Origin: an uncultured Oscillospiraceae bacterium | GTDB lineage: Bacteria > Bacillota > Clostridia > Oscillospirales > Oscillospiraceae | Length of the DNA: 35,248 bases | NCBI GenBank assembly: GCA_947625845.1 | Contig: CANQQB010000016.1 | Coordinates: 1-35,248 of the forward strand | Reading direction: 5' to 3' | Shown here: piece after piece, positions 6,629 to 15,473 of the stretch | Position numbering within the stretch: the stretch's first letter is position 1 | How the letters are laid out: each line of letters begins with the position of its first letter | The notes under the pieces: model-generated | Told to the model about the DNA's origin: nothing | What the model saw: the letters and a program-made list of their open reading frames with translations, nothing else | Database searches by the model: none | Made by a program: the position numbers and the translations under genes

Positions 6629-7671
6629 CAAAGGAAAAGGTACAAAACATCGCGCTCTCGCCTGACGGGAGCGCGGTGCATATTCTGGACCAGACCCGTC
6701 TGCCGGGGGAAGTGGTTTACATAAACCTCCGGGATAGGGAGGCTATGTACGAGGCCGTCAAGGCGCTGCGGGTCCGGGGCGCGCCGGCCATCGGCATCTT
6801 CGCGGCGTACTGCGTGTGCGTGCTGGCCAAAGGCTATGGGGAAGGGGAGTTCTTCAAACGGCTGGACATCGATTGTGACCACCTCATATCCTGCCGGCCC
6901 ACGGCGGTGAACCTGGCCAGGCAGGTGGAGCGTATGCGGGGCCTGGCTCACGGCATGGAGGGGAAGCCGGCAGCGGACATCGTGGCGGCGCTGGGCCGGG
7001 AGGCGCGGGCCATCCACGACGAGGATATCGCCATGTGCCGGGCCATCGCGGAATACGGGTTGAGCCTGCTGCATCCCGGCGACACGGTGCTGACCCACTG
7101 TAACGCCGGGCCGCTGGCTACCAGCGAGTACGGCACGGGGCTGGGGCCGCTGCTGCTGGCCGCGGAGCGGGGCGTGGAGATAAAAGCCTATGTGGACGAG
7201 ACGCGGCCGCTTCTCCAGGGGGCGCGGCTCACGGCCTGGGAGCTTCTAAATGCCGGGGTGGACTGCACGCTCATATGCGACAATATGGCGGCGCTGGCGA
7301 TGCGCGAGGGCAGGATACAGGCGGTGCTGGCCGGGTGCGACCGGATGGCCGCCAACGGGGACGCTGCCAATAAGATAGGCACCTCCGGCGCGGCCATCAT
7401 TGCAAAGCACTACGGCGTGCCGGTGTATATCCTGCTGCCGTCCAGCACCATCGACCTTGCCTGTCAAACCGGGGCGGATATCCCCATCGAGATACGGGAC
7501 GGGGAGGAGATACGCTCCCTGTGGTACGAAAAACCCATGGCGCCGGCGGGGGTGAAGTGCTGGGACCCGGCGTTCGACGTGACGGACCATGAGCTCATCA
7601 CCGCCATCGTCACGGAAAAGGGCGTGGTGCGGCCGCCGTATGACGTGAACCTGCAAAAGCTGTTTGGATAA
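6625..7671 (+). CDS. mtnA: MtnA-type S-methyl-5-thioribose-1-phosphate isomerase
   Basis: The protein has 348 residues, the standard length, starting at an ATG that overlaps the stop codon of punA. The family converts the aldose 5-methylthioribose-1-phosphate into the ketose 5-methylthioribulose-1-phosphate. Seen in the sequence are RGAPAIG near residue 50, THCNAGPLAT with the catalytic Cys near residue 160, YVDETRPLLQGARLTAWEL, and GCDRMAANGDAANKIGT with the catalytic Asp near residue 240, then LPSSTID. Neighbouring methionine salvage genes (mtnK, mtnB, mtnD) are absent. Coupling to a nucleoside phosphorylase suggests it may isomerise a pentose-1-phosphate or 5-deoxyribose-1-phosphate made there; that part is inference. 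Confidence 0.88.
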   Translation: MTKEKVQNIALSPDGSAVHILDQTRLPGEVVYINLRDREAMYEAVKALRVRGAPAIGIFAAYCVCVLAKGYGEGEFFKRLDIDCDHLISCRPTAVNLARQVERMRGLAHGMEGKPAADIVAALGREARAIHDEDIAMCRAIAEYGLSLLHPGDTVLTHCNAGPLATSEYGTGLGPLLLAAERGVEIKAYVDETRPLLQGARLTAWELLNAGVDCTLICDNMAALAMREGRIQAVLAGCDRMAANGDAANKIGTSGAAIIAKHYGVPVYILLPSSTIDLACQTGADIPIEIRDGEEIRSLWYEKPMAPAGVKCWDPAFDVTDHELITAIVTEKGVVRPPYDVNLQKLFG

Positions 7672-7687
7672 AAAAGGAGGGTTTGAA

Positions 7688-8221
7688 ATGAAATGGCTGA
7701 TCGCGTCCGACCTGCACGGGTCGGCGGAGTGCTGCGAGGCGCTGCTGAAGGCGTACGAAAGGGAGGGGGCCGACAGGCTCCTGCTGCTGGGGGATATCCT
7801 CTATAAGAAGCTGGGGACAAAGCGGAACAAACAGACCGTGGCGGAGATGCTGAACCCCATGGCGGACCGGATCGTGTGCGTCCGGGGCAACTGCGACAGC
7901 GACGAGGACATCTCCATGCTGGTCTTTCCCGTGGAGCCGAATTATCTGCGCATCCCCATAGGGCATGTGGCCATGTTCGCTACCCACGGGCATATGTACA
8001 ACGACACCAACCTGCCTCCCAACATGGACGAGGGGGATATCCTGCTCCACGGGCACACCCACGTGCCCAGAACGGAGAATCGGGGGCATTACCTGTGCTT
8101 CAACCCCGGCTCCGTGTCCAGTCCCCTGTGGGGCAGCGAGCGGGGGTATATGACGGCGGAGGACGGGTCGTTCCGGTGGCTGACCCTGGAGGGGGAGGAG
8201 TACCGGCGATATGAGCTGTAA
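7688..8221 (+). CDS. yfcE: YfcE-type metallophosphodiesterase
   Basis: This calcineurin-like phosphoesterase has 177 residues, the usual YfcE/MJ0936 length. The start at 7688 has a strong AAAGGAGG eight bases upstream; the longer in-frame start at 7664 overlaps mtnA and lacks a site. The metal-binding motifs appear in the expected order: SDLHG at 7-11, LLLGDIL, VRGNCDSD, ATHGH and LLHGHTHVPR. Related enzymes hydrolyse phosphodiesters with Mn2+ in vitro, and the physiological substrate is generally unknown. It follows mtnA after 16 bases and precedes the secreted beta-helix gene by 25 bases. It may belong to the same transcript, although a functional link with the secreted proteins is not evident. 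Confidence 0.88.
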   Translation: MKWLIASDLHGSAECCEALLKAYEREGADRLLLLGDILYKKLGTKRNKQTVAEMLNPMADRIVCVRGNCDSDEDISMLVFPVEPNYLRIPIGHVAMFATHGHMYNDTNLPPNMDEGDILLHGHTHVPRTENRGHYLCFNPGSVSSPLWGSERGYMTAEDGSFRWLTLEGEEYRRYEL

Positions 8222-8246
8222 ATCATCTACTGTGGAGGCAAGTACA

Positions 8247-11156
8247 ATGAAAAAGCGCGTAGTATGTTTGTTTTTGGCGGCGATCGGCCTGTTTTCCCTG
8301 GCCGTCCCGGCGTTCGCAGAGGAAGAGCCGGTGGTAACGGAAGAGCCGGTGGTGACGGAAGAGGCGGCGGTAACGGAAGAGCAGGTGGTAACGGAAGAGC
8401 CGGTGGTAACGGAAGAGCCGGTGGTAACGGAAGAGCCGGTGGTAACGGAAGAGCCGGTGGTAACGGAAGAGCCGGTTGTAACGGAAGAACCGGCGGAGAC
8501 GGAAGAGCCGGTGGTGACGGAAGAGCCGGTTGTAACGGAAGAGCCGGTGGTGACGGAGGAACCGGTCGAGGAAGCGGCGGAAGAGGAGGAGGCGGAGCCG
8601 GAGACGGTCGCTGCCGGGGATACCATCAACGTGTCCGCGGCGGATATCGCCAGCCTGGGGGCCGTAAAGGCCATCCAGAACGCGCTGGACGCCGCCGCCG
8701 TCGGCACGCCGGAAGCGCCTTGCACCGTCCAGGTGGAGGCGGGCACGTATACGCTGGAAAGCGGGTCCCTGTCCGTGGGCAGCAACACCATTTTTGATTT
8801 GACGGGCGTGACGCTGAAAAGGACCGGCGCGTCCTCTTTGGGCGTTTTCTATAACATGGTCTTTCTGGGCATGCCGGAGGACCGGGCCAATGCCGTGGGC
8901 TATGCCTTTCAAAATATCACCATTCGGGGCGGCACGCTGGACGGCAGCGGCGGGGATACGACCGTGCTGAAAATGTGCCACGCGGCGAACGTCACCGTCA
9001 GCGGGGTGACGCTGACCAACGTGAGGAACGCACACCTGACGGAGGTGGCCGGCGTGAGCGGCCTTACCATCAGCGGCTGCGCTTTTTCCAACCAGCTTTT
9101 GGATGTGGGCGCGGCCACGGGCACCTTTGAGGCCGTCCAGATAGACGTGCTCAAGGCGGCGCATATCACGGGCTACCGGGAGGAAGATCTGGCCACCGGC
9201 GGCGTGACCGTGACCGGCTGCACGTTCAACAACGTGCCCCGCGGCGTGGGCGGACACACGAATATTATCGGCTGCCCCATCAGCGGCGTCACCGTGAGCG
9301 GGTGCGTCTTCGCCAATATCAAAAGCGCGGCCGTCTTCTCCTTCGGCTGGACCGGCTGCAATTTCTCCAACAATACCATCACGGCGCCGCGCGGCATCGT
9401 GGTCAGCTCCGTGAGCGACGAGGGCGGCGAGGTCTATGCACCGGCCGGCTACACGGCGCCGGCCGCCGACCAGACCATCACCGTCAGCGGCAATACCGTC
9501 GCCGTCGCCGGGACCGACCCGTACAGCAACGCCGAACCGTGCGGCATCATGGTGCGGGGCTATGCGCTGGGCGGGGTCGACTATTTCATCGGCGGCGCGT
9601 CCGTCACCGGCAACACGATCACCGGCAGCGGCGTCAGCCACGGCATCAGCCTGCTGGACGCGCGCGATTCGTCCGTCACCGGCAACAGCGTGGAGAACGT
9701 GGGCAAAAACGGCGTGCTGGTGATGGACAGCGCCGGCGTGACCGTGGCCGATAACACGCTCAGCAAGGCAGGCGCTCACGGCGTCTGGGTATCCGGGTCC
9801 ACCGTGACAGTCCGGCGGAACACCGTCACAGAAGCCGCCGGCAACGGCATCGGCGGGGAGAACGCCACGCTCACGGTCGAGGACAACACCATCGAGACGC
9901 CGGGCAGCAACGGTCTGCTGGGGCAAAACGGCACCACGCTGACCGCTACGGGCAACAGGATAACGGCGGCCGGGGGCAACGGCATCTATGCGGCGGGGGG
10001 CAGCACCCTGAACGCCAGCGGCAATACGGTCACCGGTCCCGCCGGGCAGGCCATCGGCGCGGAAAACGCCGCCGTGACGGCCACGGATAACACGCTGGAC
10101 AACGCGGGCAAAAGCGGTATCATCGTGTCCGCCGGTTCCACGCTGACCGCCACCGGCAACAGGATAACGGCTCCCAAGGCACACGGCATCTATGTGTACA
10201 ACTGCCTGGCGCAGAGCAAGGCGAGCGTTGTGGACGCCAACACGGTCACGGACGCGGGCAATTACGGCATCGCGGTCTCCAATTCCCAGGTGAAGGCCGT
10301 CACCGGCAATACGGTCACCGGTCCCGCGAGCAGCGGCATCTTCGTATACAGCAAGGCGGCGGCCGACAGCATCCGGGACAACACCGTCACCTCGCCTGCC
10401 CGCTACGGCATCCATATCGCGGAGGGCTCCAGGACCACGACGGTCAGCGGCAACGTTGTCGCCGGCGCGGGGGAGTACGGCATCGTGGTGAGCGGCAAGT
10501 CCGGCGGCGGCACGATCGCGAACAATACGGTGAGCGGCGCCGGGAAGGGCACCGTTTTGGTGGCCGCCGACAGCACGGGGAAGGTCTCCAACACCTACCT
10601 GGCAGAAGCGCCGACGGTGAAGATCGCGAAGGTCTCCACGGGTATCAAGGTGACGTGGAACAAGATCACGGGGTCGCCGAGGTATATGGTGTACTATAAA
10701 GAAGGGAATGGCGGGTGGAAGAAAATCGGGACCACCACCGCGACAAGTTACACCAGGGCGGCGAAGTACCTCAAGAATGGGGTGACGTACGCGTTCACGG
10801 TGCGGTGCTGCGCGAACGATAAGAAGACCATGCTGGGGCCGTACAAGGCGAGTAACAGCGTCACGTATAGCACGGGCCAGCTCGCGGCGCCGACGGTGAA
10901 GATCGTGAAGGTGGCTACGGGTATCAAGGTGACGTGGAATAAGTTGGACGGAGCGCCGCGGTACATGGTGTATTATAGGGAAGGCAACGGCGGGTGGAAG
11001 AAGATCGGGACCACCACCAGCACCACGTACACGCGAGCGGCGAAGTATTTGAAGAACGGGGTCACGTATACGTTTACGGTAAGGTGCTGCGCGAACGATA
11101 AGAAAACCCTGCTGGGGCCGTATAAAGCGAGCAATAGTGTGAAGTACACAAAATAG
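8247..11156 (+). CDS. Secreted parallel beta-helix protein with acidic repeat and two FN3-like modules
   Basis: The protein has 969 residues. The start at 8247 has GGAGG upstream, and residues 1-24 are a Sec signal peptide cut after AVPAFA. Residues 26-107 are about 13 copies of EEPVVT, probably an extended acidic stalk. Residues about 130-780 form a right-handed parallel beta-helix: an N-terminal pectate-lyase-like start (AIQNALDAAAVGTPEAPCTV), then many coils of the form VTGNTIT/ADNTLSKAG, with Asn and, in early coils, Cys stacked (SGCAFSN, TGCTFNN, SGCVFAN). Residues 788-875 and 881-968 are two near-identical FN3-like modules, each with RCCAND. No LPXTG, SLH, dockerin or choline-binding anchor is visible. 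Polysaccharide binding or cleavage is plausible from the fold; no catalytic residues can be assigned. A paralogue follows at 11197. Confidence 0.85.
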   Translation: MKKRVVCLFLAAIGLFSLAVPAFAEEEPVVTEEPVVTEEAAVTEEQVVTEEPVVTEEPVVTEEPVVTEEPVVTEEPVVTEEPAETEEPVVTEEPVVTEEPVVTEEPVEEAAEEEEAEPETVAAGDTINVSAADIASLGAVKAIQNALDAAAVGTPEAPCTVQVEAGTYTLESGSLSVGSNTIFDLTGVTLKRTGASSLGVFYNMVFLGMPEDRANAVGYAFQNITIRGGTLDGSGGDTTVLKMCHAANVTVSGVTLTNVRNAHLTEVAGVSGLTISGCAFSNQLLDVGAATGTFEAVQIDVLKAAHITGYREEDLATGGVTVTGCTFNNVPRGVGGHTNIIGCPISGVTVSGCVFANIKSAAVFSFGWTGCNFSNNTITAPRGIVVSSVSDEGGEVYAPAGYTAPAADQTITVSGNTVAVAGTDPYSNAEPCGIMVRGYALGGVDYFIGGASVTGNTITGSGVSHGISLLDARDSSVTGNSVENVGKNGVLVMDSAGVTVADNTLSKAGAHGVWVSGSTVTVRRNTVTEAAGNGIGGENATLTVEDNTIETPGSNGLLGQNGTTLTATGNRITAAGGNGIYAAGGSTLNASGNTVTGPAGQAIGAENAAVTATDNTLDNAGKSGIIVSAGSTLTATGNRITAPKAHGIYVYNCLAQSKASVVDANTVTDAGNYGIAVSNSQVKAVTGNTVTGPASSGIFVYSKAAADSIRDNTVTSPARYGIHIAEGSRTTTVSGNVVAGAGEYGIVVSGKSGGGTIANNTVSGAGKGTVLVAADSTGKVSNTYLAEAPTVKIAKVSTGIKVTWNKITGSPRYMVYYKEGNGGWKKIGTTTATSYTRAAKYLKNGVTYAFTVRCCANDKKTMLGPYKASNSVTYSTGQLAAPTVKIVKVATGIKVTWNKLDGAPRYMVYYREGNGGWKKIGTTTSTTYTRAAKYLKNGVTYTFTVRCCANDKKTLLGPYKASNSVKYTK
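8322..8567 (+). repeat. 18-bp coding tandem repeat (EEPVVT hexapeptide)
   Basis: About thirteen 18-bp units of the form GAAGAGCCGGTGGTAACG run in frame, with two adjacent variant units (EEAAVT, EEQVVT) and one EEPAET. Five consecutive units are almost identical at DNA level, so length changes by slippage are likely and would keep the reading frame. Confidence 0.9.
10608..11150 (+). repeat. Two tandem FN3-like coding modules (279-bp period)
   Basis: The modules start at 10608 and 10887. Each reads from APTVKI through YMVYY, YTRAAKYLKNGV and TVRCCANDKKT to YKASNSV. They are nearly identical at DNA level to three modules in the next gene, which implies recent duplication or gene conversion. Confidence 0.88.
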
Positions 11157-11196
11157 GATACAGGACGCAATTAAGTGAAAAGGAAGGTGTGACACT

Positions 11197-14100
11197 ATGG
11201 CAAAGCGCGGTCTATGTCTGCTCCTGGCGGTGGCGACGGTGTTCTCCCTGGCCGCTCCGGCGTTCGCCGAGGAAGAAGGCGTCGTCACGGAGGAACCGGT
11301 GGTGACGGAGGAACCGGTGGTGACGGAGGAACCGGTGGTAACGGAGGAACCGGTGGAGGTCACGGAGGAACCGGTGGAGGTCACGGAAGAGCCGGTGGCG
11401 ACGGAAGAGCCGGTGGTGACGGAGGAGCCGGTGGTCACGGAGGAACCGGTGGTAACGGAGGAACCGGTGGCAACGGAGGAACCGGCGGCAACGGAGGAAC
11501 CGGAAGAGCCGGAGGCTGTCGCCGACGCGCCCACGTCCGGGACCTGCGGAGAGAGCGTCACTTGGTCCTTCGCCGACGGTACGCTGACCATCTCCGGCGC
11601 GGGACCCATGAGCGATTATAAATCGGGCAACGCGCCGTGGTACAGCCTCAGAAGTTCCATCCAAAACGTGGTCATCGAAAACGGCGTGACCAGCATCGGG
11701 AGCAACGCGTTCCTGTATTGCCAAAGCTTGACCAGCGTGACCCTCCCCAGCGGCTTGACCAGCATCGGGGACGGCGCGTTTTCCAACTGCACGAGTCTGG
11801 CCAGCGTGACCATCCCCAGCAGCGTGACCAGCATCGGGGGCAGCGCGTTTTATAACTGCACAAGCCTGACGCAGGTGACCATCCCCAACACCGTCACCGA
11901 GCTGGGACAGTATGCCTTTTACAAGAGCGGGCTGACGAGCGTGACCATCCCGGGCAGCGTGGGGGAGATCCCGGATTTTGCCTTTGAGTATTGCCCAGAC
12001 CTGGCCAGCGTCAAGATCGGCAACGGTGTGACCAGCATAGGGGGGTATGCGTTTTACGACTGCGAAAAACTGACAGAGATCGACATCCCCGCCAGTGTGA
12101 CCAGCACCAGTTCAAGCGCCTTTTCCGGCACGCCCTGGCAGGAGGCCCAGAAGGACTTTGTGGTGGCCAACGGTATACTTGTAAAATACAAGGGCAGCGC
12201 CGCTGACGTGACCGTCCCCCAGAACGTGACCGTCATTGGGACCGATGCGTTTATGGACTGCACGGATGTGAAGATCGTGACGCTCCCCAAAAGCGTGACC
12301 GCCATCGGAGCTGGGGCGTTTGCCCGGTCGGGGCTGGAGAAGATCACGATCCCGGACAGCGTGACCACCATCGGGGGCAGCGCGTTCAGGGAATGCAGAG
12401 GCCTGACCGCCGTGACCATCCCCAACAGCGTGACCAGCATCGGTGATACTGCTTTTTATCAGTCGGCGCTCAAGTCGATCACCATCCCGGCCAGCGTGAC
12501 GGAGATCGGGAAGAACTGCTTTGGCAATTGCAATTTGCTGACGGCCATCCAGGTGGCCAAGGGCAATAAGGTCTACGCCTCAGTGGACGGGGTACTGCTG
12601 AATGCCGCCAAGACGGAGATCATCCTTTGCCCGCAAAAGTGGAGCGGCGCGTTCACCGTTCCCAACACAGTGCGCACGATCAGCGCGGAAGTGTTTTATA
12701 ACTGCGACGGTCTGACCGCCGTGAACATCCCCAACAGCGTGACCCTCATCGGAGAATCTGCTTTCGGCAATTGCGACGGCCTGACCGCCGTGACCATCCC
12801 CGGCAGCGTGACCCTCATCGGAGCCGAAGCGTTTTCCTACTGCGACAAGCTGAGCGTGGTGACCATACAGGAGGGCGTGCAGCGGATAGGCGCCTGGGCT
12901 TTCAGAAACTGCGGGAGCCTGAGCACCATAGTCGGTCCGCATACGCTGACGGCTGTGGGCTACCAGGCGTTTGACGGCACCCCCTGGAAGAACGGGCAGG
13001 CCGGCCCCCTCGTCCTGGGCAACTGCCTGGTGGACTCGCGCGGCTTTTCGTCCATCCCGCAGGGCGTGACCCTCATCGGGTACCACGCGTTTTACAATTA
13101 CTACGGCGTGACCCATGTGACGGTCCCGGAAGGGGTCGAGATCATCCAGGACGACGCGTTTTATATGTGCTGGGACCTGGAATACATCAAGCTCCCCTCT
13201 ACCTTGAAGTACATCGGAGAGGACGTATTCAGTTGGACCAAGCTGAGGACGGTGGAGGGCCTGGGCAGCGGCGTTATCGTCCATAGCGCGTTCGGTTCGT
13301 GGAAGCCGGAGCAGAAATACGAGAATTTCGAGATCGTCGGCGGCTCGTTGTGGAATTATACCGGCCAGGGCCAGGCAACGGTCACGGTCCCCGACGGCAT
13401 CGTGGCGCTCGGCAGCGGCGCGTTCAGCAACCATACGGAGGTCACCGGCATAAAGCTCCCCGAGAGCCTGACCGAGATCGGTACGTACGCGTTCAATAAT
13501 TGCACGGGCCTGCAGAGCATGGAGATACCCGCCGCCGTCACGAGCATTGGGAGCAGCGCGTTCGAGAAGTGCACGGCGCTGGCCAGCGTGACGGTCGAAA
13601 ACGCCTCCTGCTCCATCGCCTCCGGCGAGACTACCCTGGGCGTAGCCGGGACCACGGTCATCCGTGGCTATACCGGGTCCACGGCGGAGGCGTACGCCAA
13701 ACAGTACGGCTATAAATTTGAGGCGCTGGACGGGGCTCCCAAGCCTACGGCGGCGCCTACCCTGGCGGCTCCCACGGTGAGCATCAGCCAGACGGCAGAC
13801 GGTATCAAGGTCACGTGGAACAAGATAACCGGCGCGCCGAGGTACATGGTCTACTACAGGGAGAACAGCGGCGGGTGGAAACAGATCGGGACCACCACCA
13901 GCACCACGTACACGCGGGCCGCGAAGTATCTCAAGAACGGCGTGAAATACACGTTCACCGTGCGGTGCTGCGCGAACGATAAGAAGACCATGCTGGGGCC
14001 GTATAAGGCGAGCAACAGCGTGACGTATAGCACCACACAGGTCAAGCCTACGCCAGTGCCCAAGCTCGCGGCGCCGACGGTGAAGATCGCGAAGGTCTCT

Positions 14101-14619
14101 ACGGGCATTAAGGTGACGTGGAACAAGGTGAGCGGAGCGCCGCGGTACATGGTGTATTATAAAGAAGGGAATGGCGGGTGGAAGAAAATCGGGACCACGA
14201 CCAGCACCAGCTATACCAGGGCTGCGAAGTATCTCAAGAACGGCGTGAAATACACGTTCACCGTGCGGTGCTGCGCGAACGATAAGAAGACGCTGCTGGG
14301 GCCGTATAAGGCGAGCAACAGCGTGACGTATAGCACGGGACAGCTCGCGGCGCCGACGGTGAAGATCGAGAAGGTGGCTACGGGTATTAAGGTGACGTGG
14401 AACAAGATCACGGGGTCGCCGAGGTATATGGTGTATTACAAGGAAGGGAATGGCGGGTGGAAGAAAATCGGGACCACGACTGCGACAAGTTACACACGGG
14501 CGGCGAAGTATTTGAAGAACGGGGTCACGTATACGTTTACGGTAAGGTGTTGTGCGAACGATAAGAAGACGTTGTTAGGGTCGTATAAGGCGAGCAATAG
14601 TTTGAAGTACACAAAATAA
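11197..14619 (+). CDS. Secreted BspA-type leucine-rich repeat protein with acidic repeat and three FN3-like modules
   Basis: The protein has 1140 residues. GGAAGGTG precedes the ATG. Residues 1-24 form a signal peptide ending AAPAFA, very like that of the upstream paralogue. Residues 26-99 hold 12 EEPVVT-type units, two expanded to EEPVEVT. Residues about 110-840 are BspA/LRR_5 repeats of about 23 residues, with the recurring pattern LTSVTIPxSVTSIGxxAFxxC. Such domains in other bacteria bind host or bacterial surface proteins. Three FN3-like modules start at residues 858, 959 and 1052, each with the RCCAND motif; the first two are separated by a Pro/Thr linker (VKPTPVPK). The ending SNSLKYTK matches the paralogue's SNSVKYTK. 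No wall-anchoring signal is seen. It lies 40 bases after the beta-helix gene with no terminator between, so the two are probably coexpressed. Confidence 0.88.
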   Translation: MAKRGLCLLLAVATVFSLAAPAFAEEEGVVTEEPVVTEEPVVTEEPVVTEEPVEVTEEPVEVTEEPVATEEPVVTEEPVVTEEPVVTEEPVATEEPAATEEPEEPEAVADAPTSGTCGESVTWSFADGTLTISGAGPMSDYKSGNAPWYSLRSSIQNVVIENGVTSIGSNAFLYCQSLTSVTLPSGLTSIGDGAFSNCTSLASVTIPSSVTSIGGSAFYNCTSLTQVTIPNTVTELGQYAFYKSGLTSVTIPGSVGEIPDFAFEYCPDLASVKIGNGVTSIGGYAFYDCEKLTEIDIPASVTSTSSSAFSGTPWQEAQKDFVVANGILVKYKGSAADVTVPQNVTVIGTDAFMDCTDVKIVTLPKSVTAIGAGAFARSGLEKITIPDSVTTIGGSAFRECRGLTAVTIPNSVTSIGDTAFYQSALKSITIPASVTEIGKNCFGNCNLLTAIQVAKGNKVYASVDGVLLNAAKTEIILCPQKWSGAFTVPNTVRTISAEVFYNCDGLTAVNIPNSVTLIGESAFGNCDGLTAVTIPGSVTLIGAEAFSYCDKLSVVTIQEGVQRIGAWAFRNCGSLSTIVGPHTLTAVGYQAFDGTPWKNGQAGPLVLGNCLVDSRGFSSIPQGVTLIGYHAFYNYYGVTHVTVPEGVEIIQDDAFYMCWDLEYIKLPSTLKYIGEDVFSWTKLRTVEGLGSGVIVHSAFGSWKPEQKYENFEIVGGSLWNYTGQGQATVTVPDGIVALGSGAFSNHTEVTGIKLPESLTEIGTYAFNNCTGLQSMEIPAAVTSIGSSAFEKCTALASVTVENASCSIASGETTLGVAGTTVIRGYTGSTAEAYAKQYGYKFEALDGAPKPTAAPTLAAPTVSISQTADGIKVTWNKITGAPRYMVYYRENSGGWKQIGTTTSTTYTRAAKYLKNGVKYTFTVRCCANDKKTMLGPYKASNSVTYSTTQVKPTPVPKLAAPTVKIAKVSTGIKVTWNKVSGAPRYMVYYKEGNGGWKKIGTTTSTSYTRAAKYLKNGVKYTFTVRCCANDKKTLLGPYKASNSVTYSTGQLAAPTVKIEKVATGIKVTWNKITGSPRYMVYYKEGNGGWKKIGTTTATSYTRAAKYLKNGVTYTFTVRCCANDKKTLLGSYKASNSLKYTK
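11272..11493 (+). repeat. 18/21-bp coding tandem repeat (EEPVVT, EEPVEVT)
   Basis: There are twelve in-frame units: ten of 18 bp and two of 21 bp, the latter inserting one residue. The codon choice (GAGGAACCGGTGGT) differs slightly from the array at 8322, so the two arrays have been amplified separately. Confidence 0.88.
13768..14613 (+). repeat. Three FN3-like coding modules
   Basis: Modules begin at 13768, 14071 and 14350. The last two are closest to those at 10608 and 10887; the first is more diverged (VSISQTADGIKV). All five carry YTRAAKYLKNGV and RCCANDKKT. Confidence 0.88.
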
Positions 14620-14626
14620 AATTTAT

Positions 14627-14655
14627 GGGCGCGGCCGATGGCCGCGCCCTTTCTC
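14627..14655 (+). terminator. Terminator ending the secreted-protein block
   Basis: Perfect 10-bp GC arms GGGCGCGGCC (14627-14636) and GGCCGCGCCC (14640-14649) enclose a 3-base loop and are followed by TTTCTC. It lies 8 bases after the stop codon and insulates the dcw promoter from upstream transcription. Confidence 0.85.
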
Positions 14656-14720
14656 TCCCTCAGTCATGCTGACGCATGACAGCCCCCTCGTCAGAGGGGG
14701 CCGCGCTGCGGCGCGAGGGA
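14656..14720 (+). repeat. Intergenic palindromic repeat, copy with variant second hairpins
   Basis: GTCATGC/GCATGAC is followed by CCCCCT/AGGGGG with loop CGTC, and then a further CGCGC-type stem. The first hairpin is identical to that at 2375-2392. The long gene-free stretch 14620-15056 is filled by this and the next two copies, then an A-rich tract with nothing recognisable, then the mraZ promoter. Confidence 0.75.
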
Positions 14721-14774
14721 CAACCCTCCAGTCACGCTTGCGCGTGACAGCCCCCCTTACACAGGGGGGCCTTA
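14721..14774 (+). repeat. Intergenic palindromic repeat, second copy at this locus
   Basis: It opens with CAACCCTCCAGTCACGC, as at 2442. The first hairpin is GTCACGC/GCGTGAC and the second is CCCCCC/GGGGGG with loop TTACACA, then CCTT. The linker at 14776-14795 resembles the linker at 2420-2439. Confidence 0.8.
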
Positions 14775-14795
14775 CATAAGGAAAGATTTGAAATT

Positions 14796-14845
14796 CTCCC
14801 CCCAGTCTCGCTGACGCATGACAGCCCCCCTTACACAGGGGGGCC
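14796..14845 (+). repeat. Intergenic palindromic repeat, third copy at this locus
   Basis: This is the same unit with CAGTCTCGCTGACGCATGAC as first hairpin and the identical C6/G6 second hairpin with loop TTACACA. It ends about 120 bases before the -35 box of the dcw promoter. Confidence 0.8.
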
Positions 14846-14965
14846 GTTCCATATGGAATGGACGTGGATTTTTTGCTGATGCAAGATGTTGTGGCGCGTA
14901 AAAATGCCGCCCACAATTGGAAAAAATTGGCAGCGGAAATGTGGAAAAAAACCGCTTTCGCCCCC

Positions 14966-14994
14966 TTGCAATTTGGAAAACCGGCCTCTATAAT
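14966..14994 (+). promoter_or_regulatory. Sigma-A promoter of the dcw cluster
   Basis: TTGCAA (14966-14971), a 17-base spacer and a perfect TATAAT (14989-14994) put the transcript start near 15001. This matches the usual position of the dcw promoter just before mraZ. Confidence 0.88.
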
Positions 14995-15002
14995 AGGGTC
15001 AT

Positions 15003-15029
15003 GTGGGGAGAAGTGGGGGAAAGTGTTTC
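15003..15029 (+). promoter_or_regulatory. MraZ boxes (operator of the dcw cluster)
   Basis: Direct repeats GTGGGGA (15003), GTGGGGG (15013) and a degenerate GTGTTTC (15023) have an exact 10-base period, that is TGGGN blocks with 5-base spacers. This is the arrangement bound by MraZ in Escherichia coli. The boxes start right at the predicted transcript start. GGGAAAG (15017-15023) and CTTTCCC (15031-15037) can also pair as an RNA hairpin before the ribosome binding site. Confidence 0.75.
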
Positions 15030-15056
15030 GCTTTCCCACGGAGAGGGGTGAACAGC

Positions 15057-15473
15057 ATGACAGGCGAATATCAACATTCCCTGGACGCCAAAGGGCGGCT
15101 GTTCATTCCCGCGCGCCTGCGGGACGAGCTGGGTCCCGCGTTTTACGTCACGCTGAGCATGGACCACTGTCTGTGCGCCTACAGCGCGGAACAGTGGCAG
15201 ATATTCTCCGATAAGGTCAACGCAATGCCCTACGTGCGGCAGCGGGCCATGCGCCCGCTGTACGCTTTCGCGTGCAAGTGCGAGCTGGACGCGCAGGGGC
15301 GTATTTTGCTGCCCCAAAACCTGCGGGAGCGGGCGGGGCTGGTGAAGAACGTGACCGTGCTGGGCTCCAACAACCACGCGGAGTTCTGGGACAGCGACGA
15401 GTGGGCCGCGCTGCGTGACAGCGAGGCCTCGCCGGAGAACATCGCGGCCGTCATGCAGGAGTTCGACTTCTGA
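15057..15473 (+). CDS. mraZ: MraZ, transcriptional repressor of the dcw cluster
   Basis: The protein has 138 residues, close to the usual 143-152. The start at 15057 (GAGAGGGG upstream) gives the conserved MTGEYQHSLDAKGRLFIPAR; the longer in-frame start at 15003 lies in the operator. Two tandem SpoVT/AbrB-like half-domains are visible, each with its signature: DAKGRLFIPARLRDEL near residue 10 and DAQGRILLPQNLRERAGL near residue 80. MraZ forms ring oligomers that bind the TGGGN repeats in its own promoter and repress the cluster. Its stop codon overlaps the rsmH start (TGATG), so the two are translationally coupled. Confidence 0.95.
   Translation: MTGEYQHSLDAKGRLFIPARLRDELGPAFYVTLSMDHCLCAYSAEQWQIFSDKVNAMPYVRQRAMRPLYAFACKCELDAQGRILLPQNLRERAGLVKNVTVLGSNNHAEFWDSDEWAALRDSEASPENIAAVMQEFDF

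Follow-up and report, generated by a model that had tools for sequence, protein, structure and literature searches.

In the Msp2/P44 surface protein cassettes, a varying middle lies between constant flanks, and the single expression site receives its middles from partial pseudogene cassettes. A different arrangement is described for babA and babB of Helicobacter pylori, where the 5' and middle regions are alike between strains and the 3' ends are alike within a strain, reflecting concerted evolution by gene conversion (PMC3960876). In Ruminococcus albus, one module, CBM37, at times repeated, occurs on many exported proteins with unlike cores; three strains of this one species, to which it is confined, have 77, 51 and 102 copies, and enzymes are reportedly held at the cell surface by it (PMC4081043). 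Here we compare with these systems two adjacent genes, termed A and B, in a 35,248-nucleotide (nt) stretch of DNA (hereafter the window) from an uncultured Oscillospiraceae bacterium (assembly GCA_947625845.1, contig CANQQB010000016.1). An initial annotation had read the two as a pair in which a binding core is exchanged between constant ends. We find that A and B are no special pair; they are members of a family of about 37 genes in this genome, and the core of A is vertically inherited and joined to a tail that is not orthologous to that of its counterpart in a sister species.

A and B are tandem genes with a gap of 40 nt, located between a gene for a YfcE-like phosphoesterase and mraZ. Their parts are as follows:

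8247..11156, forward strand: gene A, 969 amino acids (aa), with a beta-helix core and two FN3 modules
8247..8318, forward strand: signal peptide of A, 24 aa, from the translation by eye
8321..8566, forward strand: EEPVVT stalk of A, 13.7 copies of 18 nt (Tandem Repeats Finder, TRF; codons)
8607..10607, forward strand: beta-helix core of A, vertically inherited (PF13229; synonymous divergence, dS, by window against the sister species)
10608..11150, forward strand: tail of A, FN3 modules 10608-10880 and 10881-11150, protein end YTK, non-orthologous to the A tail of the sister species
11197..14619, forward strand: gene B, 1140 aa, with a BspA-type leucine-rich repeat (LRR) core and three FN3 modules
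11197..11268, forward strand: signal peptide of B, 24 aa by eye, of the MAKRGLCLLLA type usual in the family
11287..11503, forward strand: EEPVVT stalk of B, 11.7 copies of 18 nt (TRF)
11527..13761, forward strand: BspA-type LRR core of B (PF13306; LRR_5 matches 11653-13617)
13762..14613, forward strand: tail of B, FN3 modules 13762-14040, 14065-14343 and 14344-14613, protein end YTK

As the initial annotation had proposed, the two cores are unrelated solenoids. That of A is a right-handed beta-helix (Pfam PF13229, E 3e-57) and that of B belongs to the LRR_5/BspA type (Pfam PF13306, E 3e-155, 509 bits against a cut-off of 27.7), with LRR_5 matches spanning about 650 aa. Invariant His, Glu and Asp residues across four homologs of the A core would fit a carbohydrate-active site; a sequence search of the PDB with this core retrieved no relative at E 0.001. 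The claim of shared ends held for the EEPVVT stalk, present in both proteins, and for the FN3-like C-termini (87.6% DNA identity over the last 549 base pairs, bp), but not for the signal peptides. These had been called near-identical, yet only 18 of 27 aa agree (15 of 24 without EEE), and the peptide of A is closer to that of its own ortholog in the sister species (19 of 24). As proteins the two stalks are alike, but their codons differ: EE is written GAAGAG 13 times and GAGGAA 3 times in A, and GAGGAA 10 times and GAAGAG 3 times in B, a difference in preference that suggests separate expansions. AlphaFold2 modelled the B tail as three beta-sandwich beads (predicted local distance difference test, pLDDT, 91.5; predicted template modelling score, pTM, 0.44). 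The top Foldseek matches of this model in the PDB were FN3 tandems (E 2e-11) with whole-chain template modelling (TM) scores of 0.26-0.39, low values that probably stem from flexing of the beads. A minus-strand open frame of 1128 codons (window 8223-11609) mirrors gene A and probably arises from the codon bias and repeats of that gene.

The genome is a draft of 134 contigs and is 78.5% complete. Searched with an FN3 query, it gave 104 places at E <= 0.01, and 37 open frames carry at least one such module. An FN3 module lies no more than three residues from the end in 27 of these (two of them cut by a contig end), and at least 15 residues follow the FN3 run in the other 10, once with choline-binding repeats; 24 of the 37 match the family signal-peptide leader. 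Thirty frames were scanned with Pfam; of the remaining seven, two are giant and five are short or cut. LRR_5 was the core in 17, transglutaminase in two, and FN3-type models stood alone in four; a beta-helix, flavodoxin, carboxypeptidase-regulatory-like domain, Listeria-Bacteroides repeat, LRR_4, choline-binding repeat and amidase_2 were found once each. Six core types occur on scanned frames that end in FN3 (LRR_5, beta-helix, transglutaminase, flavodoxin, carboxypeptidase-regulatory-like and Listeria-Bacteroides repeat). The initial annotation had named beforehand two findings that would speak against it, shared ends common to many proteins of the genome and a single type of core; the ends proved to be common, and the cores are of several types. 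Constant flanks with varied cores therefore describe the anatomy well, but not a pair, since the family is spread over the genome.

Unlike cores share a tail elsewhere as well: an LRR protein (locus L083) and a transglutaminase protein (L089) are 93.1% identical over 634 bp. For 69 of the 88 tail-type modules of this genome and the sister species, the nearest module lies in the same genome. The tail is present in 10 of 35 genus genomes, this one included (E <= 1e-20); among 244 further genomes sampled from the order, 2 have it (E <= 1e-25). Compared with named genomes, the A core matched eight loci. Three, two of them in one MAG, are in uncultured Oscillospiraceae metagenome-assembled genomes (MAGs) whose isolate names all contain 'Lapin', which we read as rabbit gut, at 80, 44 and 40% identity; the other five are in Eubacterium or Lachnospiraceae MAGs at 27-31%. 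No description of this FN3 family was found in the literature by title or abstract start.

Because five contigs (C6, C33, C28, C96 and C47) break off inside FN3 modules, the family count is probably a lower bound; the short family frames at contig ends are contig cuts. One family gene (L090:2348-7110, reverse strand) is apparently split: a 185-aa signal-peptide frame behind a leader RNA overlaps an LRR frame in another reading frame, through either a frameshift or an assembly error.

The comparison of synonymous divergence between flanks and cores that the initial annotation had suggested did reveal different histories within A, but in the opposite sense, the tail rather than the core having apparently moved. 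Compared with the syntenic ortholog in the sister species (genome G011), the A core has a proportion of synonymous differences (pS) of 0.262 and a dS of 0.32 (742 codons, part of the stalk included), with single windows at 0.16-0.56. This is like the neighbouring genes, five of which have dS values of 0.29-0.36, with mraZ, the sixth, at 0.61. Within the first 100 codons of A (leader and stalk) dS is raised to 0.71 and 1.43, and the repeats may be misaligned there. At the border between core and tail dS jumps. All six pairings of A tail modules between the two species have a pS of 0.64-0.81, with few protein changes, and 600 random pairs of tail modules from the two genomes gave 0.61 ± 0.11. 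Because the A tails are no more alike than random tail modules, they carry no trace of orthology. Calling this divergence saturated at the usual limit of 0.75 was rejected, as codon bias sets the baseline at 0.61 here.

Base composition changes at the same border. The share of G at fourfold degenerate third positions rises from 0.39 in the A core to 0.70 in its tail, close to the 0.71 of the last two modules of B; the A ortholog of G011 has no such step (core 0.33, tail 0.26). Among 145 modules, the last two of A and of B rank 1, 2, 3 and 5 in this measure, and the modules nearest in DNA to those of A are those of B (0.877 and 0.863). An exchange of the core between flanks is thus contradicted for A, and synonymous sites point to replacement of its tail. 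The replacement would have fallen in one of the two lineages; a third genome, G044, was rejected as an outgroup for telling which, as the G011 A modules rank only 40-156 of 218 in likeness to its modules.

The end of the tail is itself conserved. The last residue is lysine in 56 of the 59 closed frames, from four genomes, whose end lies within eight residues of an FN3 module, most commonly in S-N-S-L-x-Y-[TK]-K (C-termini in the window at 11151-11153 and 14614-14616). Lysine is last in all 25 closed frames with terminal FN3 in this genome, and internal FN3 modules that could be placed by pattern have it at the corresponding position in 5 of 121 cases. The initial annotation had seen no anchor motif, and this extends to the family: neither an LPXTG-like motif nor a hydrophobic stretch in the last 60 residues occurs in any of the 37 frames (a contig end truncates two of them). 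Tail modules matched fn3-type Pfam models and no CBM37 model at E 1e-5. With these matches and a predicted FN3 fold, membership of the tail in the CBM37 family was rejected.

The position of A and B has the following borders and signals:

7664..8221, forward strand: YfcE-like metallophosphoesterase gene (Pfam Metallophos_2), left border of the slot
14627..14649, forward strand: intrinsic-terminator-like hairpin of 10 pairs behind B (sequence scan)
14966..14994, forward strand: sigma-70-like promoter match before mraZ, right border of the slot (promoter scan)
15003..15473, forward strand: mraZ, first gene of the dcw cluster (Pfam MraZ)

The slot was compared in 16 genomes (the window, G011 and 14 others), taken from 34 genus genomes with an mraZ match. 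In eight, yfcE is followed directly by mraZ, in keeping with the accessory nature proposed for A and B; in five, a family gene stands directly before mraZ, which likewise bears out the proposed place ahead of the dcw cluster; in three, yfcE was not seen. The gap between yfcE and mraZ is therefore an accessory slot that has received genes of this family. It holds A and B in this genome and A alone in the sister species, where B is absent from the corresponding slot; flanking genes match on both sides, and the 202 bp before mraZ are 85.6% identical. The G044 occupant has an A-like core (72% over 480 aa) with a tail of another FN3 subtype, about 49% identical in amino acids to the B tail. G046 has an LRR protein with many FN3 modules, preceded by a leader RNA (see below), and G007 an FN3 protein with its core outside the contig; upstream of the slot gene, yfcE was not seen in G044 or G007.

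Between yfcE and A, the sister species (L131) has about 285 bp in which promoter-like and hairpin sequence is duplicated, and this genome only 25 nt, in which a promoter scan gave no match. A palindromic repeat (about CAGTC-CGCTGACGCATGACAGCCCCCTTACACAGGGGGGCC) lies in three copies, counted by eye, between B and the mraZ promoter (window 14660-14858), and similar pieces occur upstream of other family genes.

We favour, at a probability of roughly 60%, the reading that A and B belong to a genus-specific, much expanded modular family of exported proteins in which the FN3 tail attaches or spaces varied cores, and recombination between paralogs can replace tails while cores stay. In the architecture of the family (a signal peptide, often an acidic Glu/Pro/Thr stalk, one of several cores and a mostly C-terminal FN3 run), the cores would do the work, that of A as a possibly carbohydrate-active beta-helix and that of B as an adhesin-like BspA-type LRR solenoid. 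The FN3 run, usually ending in Y-x-K-COOH, would most likely hold or space them at the cell surface. Because the tails are alike at the DNA level, recombination among paralogs could replace them, with cores remaining at their loci.

Several observations weigh against parts of this reading. The dS between the tails of A and B, about 0.53, exceeds the species dS of 0.32 for the core; B as the proven donor of the A tail was therefore rejected, and it need not have been the donor. Nor does replacement appear to be general, because other ortholog pairs kept their tails. Nine reciprocal-best core pairs join this genome and G011, four of them with long cores (pS up to 0.44). The three long-core pairs besides A have core values of 0.341, 0.283 and 0.438 and best tail modules at 0.348, 0.344 and 0.413, although one of them has an older last module (0.482); FN3 modules were likewise kept (0.25) in a fifth pair, whose core has 88 codons. 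Third positions rich in G also occur in neighbouring genes (YfcE 0.64, MraW 0.62), so the A tail is not foreign. The terminal lysine may come partly from common descent of the last modules. Sortase matches in this genome, G011 and G017 mean that other anchoring exists, and the FN3 run is not terminal in 10 of the 37 frames, an arrangement as compatible with a spacer as with an anchor.

The original proposal, a core swapped between constant ends at a fixed locus, is now unlikely. The place before mraZ does vary in its favour, holding a beta-helix and an LRR protein in this genome, a beta-helix in G011 and G044, an LRR protein with many FN3 modules in G046 and an FN3 protein in G007. However, the A core is vertical where its tail is not, and the G046 occupant looks like the arrival of a whole gene: it is preceded by a leader RNA of its own, its FN3 modules are more divergent, and it has a C-terminal extension. 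It is likewise improbable that A and B arose by tandem duplication and divergence, or that a whole paralog (B) was gained next to A, the ends being kept alike by purifying selection and not by any exchange. The missing B in G011 and the three other ortholog pairs with cores and tails about equally old would suit such a history, but not a non-orthologous A tail beside a vertical core, nor the step in third-position composition at the border between them. Mis-joining of the A tail during assembly, owing to alike FN3 copies, might be feared in a draft of 134 contigs, several of which end inside FN3 modules. We consider it very improbable: the contig is continuous through A and B into the dcw cluster, and no relative closer than 87.7% to the A modules exists among the modules collected, so they are not collapsed repeats.

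The function of the tail is a separate matter. FN3 arrays act as spacers in many bacterial enzymes, and the main rival to attachment is that the FN3 run and stalk are spacers only, with the proteins held otherwise or released. Internal FN3 in 10 of the 37 frames and the lack of any known anchor in the family speak for this possibility, to which we give a minority share. A free spacer, though, would not obviously need to end 27 of 37 frames or to have lysine last in all 25 closed ones. By analogy with CBM37 in R. albus, we prefer the inference that the FN3 tail attaches cores to the surface.

Thirteen of the 37 family genes, A and B not among them, follow a conserved, non-coding structured leader with a terminator-like hairpin:

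loci L081-L104, L125-L150, L161-L199 and L215-L231, for example L093:3071-3354 (forward strand for the L093 copy): leader RNA copies from several families of the order, none in the window

In 27 copies from three species, the distance from leader start to ATG is 265-301 nt, and a sigma-70-like promoter was seen ahead by eye. Forty-eight pairs are kept in 97.7% of alignment cells, and the covariation score of 0.198 was not reached by any of 500 shuffles (mean 0.136) or by any slid version. Other measures were unremarkable in this set: changes on both sides in 10 pairs were reached by 35 of 500 shuffles, and the number of pair types by 463 of 500. A model of the 5' 101 positions detected the leader in 25 of the 35 genomes of the genus (E <= 0.001; 15 copies in this genome) and in 18 of 295 genomes of the order (this one included) from 13 of 149 genera. 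A wider alignment of 41 chosen copies (15 from the genus and 26 from other genera; 40 distinct rows) was fitted to the model, which biases it toward the model. There, both sides changed in 19 of 23 pairs (0 of 500 shuffles), the covariation score was 0.383 against 0.125 ± 0.010, and the pair types were reached by 23 of 500 shuffles. A hairpin before a T-rich stretch lies 140-181 nt in for 39 of the 41 copies, the other two being contig ends (by script, with no shuffled control).

Where downstream sequence was available, 37 of 39 copies are followed by a start whose N-terminus was judged, by a crude rule and by reading, to be of exported or membrane type; the exceptions are L173 (ligase-like) and L220. 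A candidate antiterminator would pair the invariant loop GCAGG with CCTGC of the terminator, with mixed support from co-variation. The leader is likely to act by transcription attenuation of exported-protein genes. Rfam gave no match on the leader in six loci (E up to 1) or 13 loci (0.1), and none in the window at 0.5. The few Rfam matches listed in these scans lie off the element, and all but one tRNA fall under their gathering scores; mir-3116 matches on L088 were dismissed as sub-threshold. The leader was not found described in the literature, including a look-up of a few terms in PMC8040213, PMC8632094 and PMC11109978; it may be present without a name in supplementary lists of this kind.

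A more speculative reading, which we hold to be rather unlikely, would combine these elements. The FN3 run ending in Y-x-K-COOH would be an attachment or sorting signal acting through its free terminal lysine, and recombination would carry it from one exported core to another, unrelated one. The leader RNA with its conserved terminator would switch some third of the family jointly, so that one signal resets the choice of surface proteins produced.

With the sister species as a yardstick, the constant end of an exported protein of a gut commensal appears replaceable while its core stays put, and the history of A cautions that shared ends do not by themselves prove core swapping. With a terminal lysine that is nearly invariant, the attachment hypothesis can be tested directly, and the leader RNA offers a handle on the control of exported proteins in this order. 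The pair A and B alone is of moderate interest; the family end signal and the leader RNA raise it.

Likenesses to known proteins differ between the two genes. B resembles BspA-type LRR surface proteins in its LRR_5 repeats, which score over the cut-off; its identification as the adhesin HupY/LrrG (NCBIfam) was rejected (partial match, 220 bits against a cut-off of 1250). A resembles right-handed beta-helix proteins (Pfam Beta_helix), the repeat being present in its core, and assignment to the NosD subfamily was rejected (39 bits against 300).

Among systems, the family resembles the CBM37 proteins in that exported proteins with a variety of cores bear the same module, here at the end of 27 of 37 frames. 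It differs in that the module is an FN3 domain, the cores are mostly BspA-type LRRs, and binding to surface or sugar is only putative. In contrast to Msp2/P44, the core of A does not move. For A, a parallel is offered by babA/babB, considered along with homA/homB of H. pylori (PMC3960876): in A the core tracks the species and the tail is nearest to a paralog of the same genome. Those genes encode outer membrane proteins with related middles, whereas the core folds here are unrelated, and the babA/babB-like effect is seen in one of four long ortholog pairs, with the nearest module in the same genome in 69 of 88 cases.

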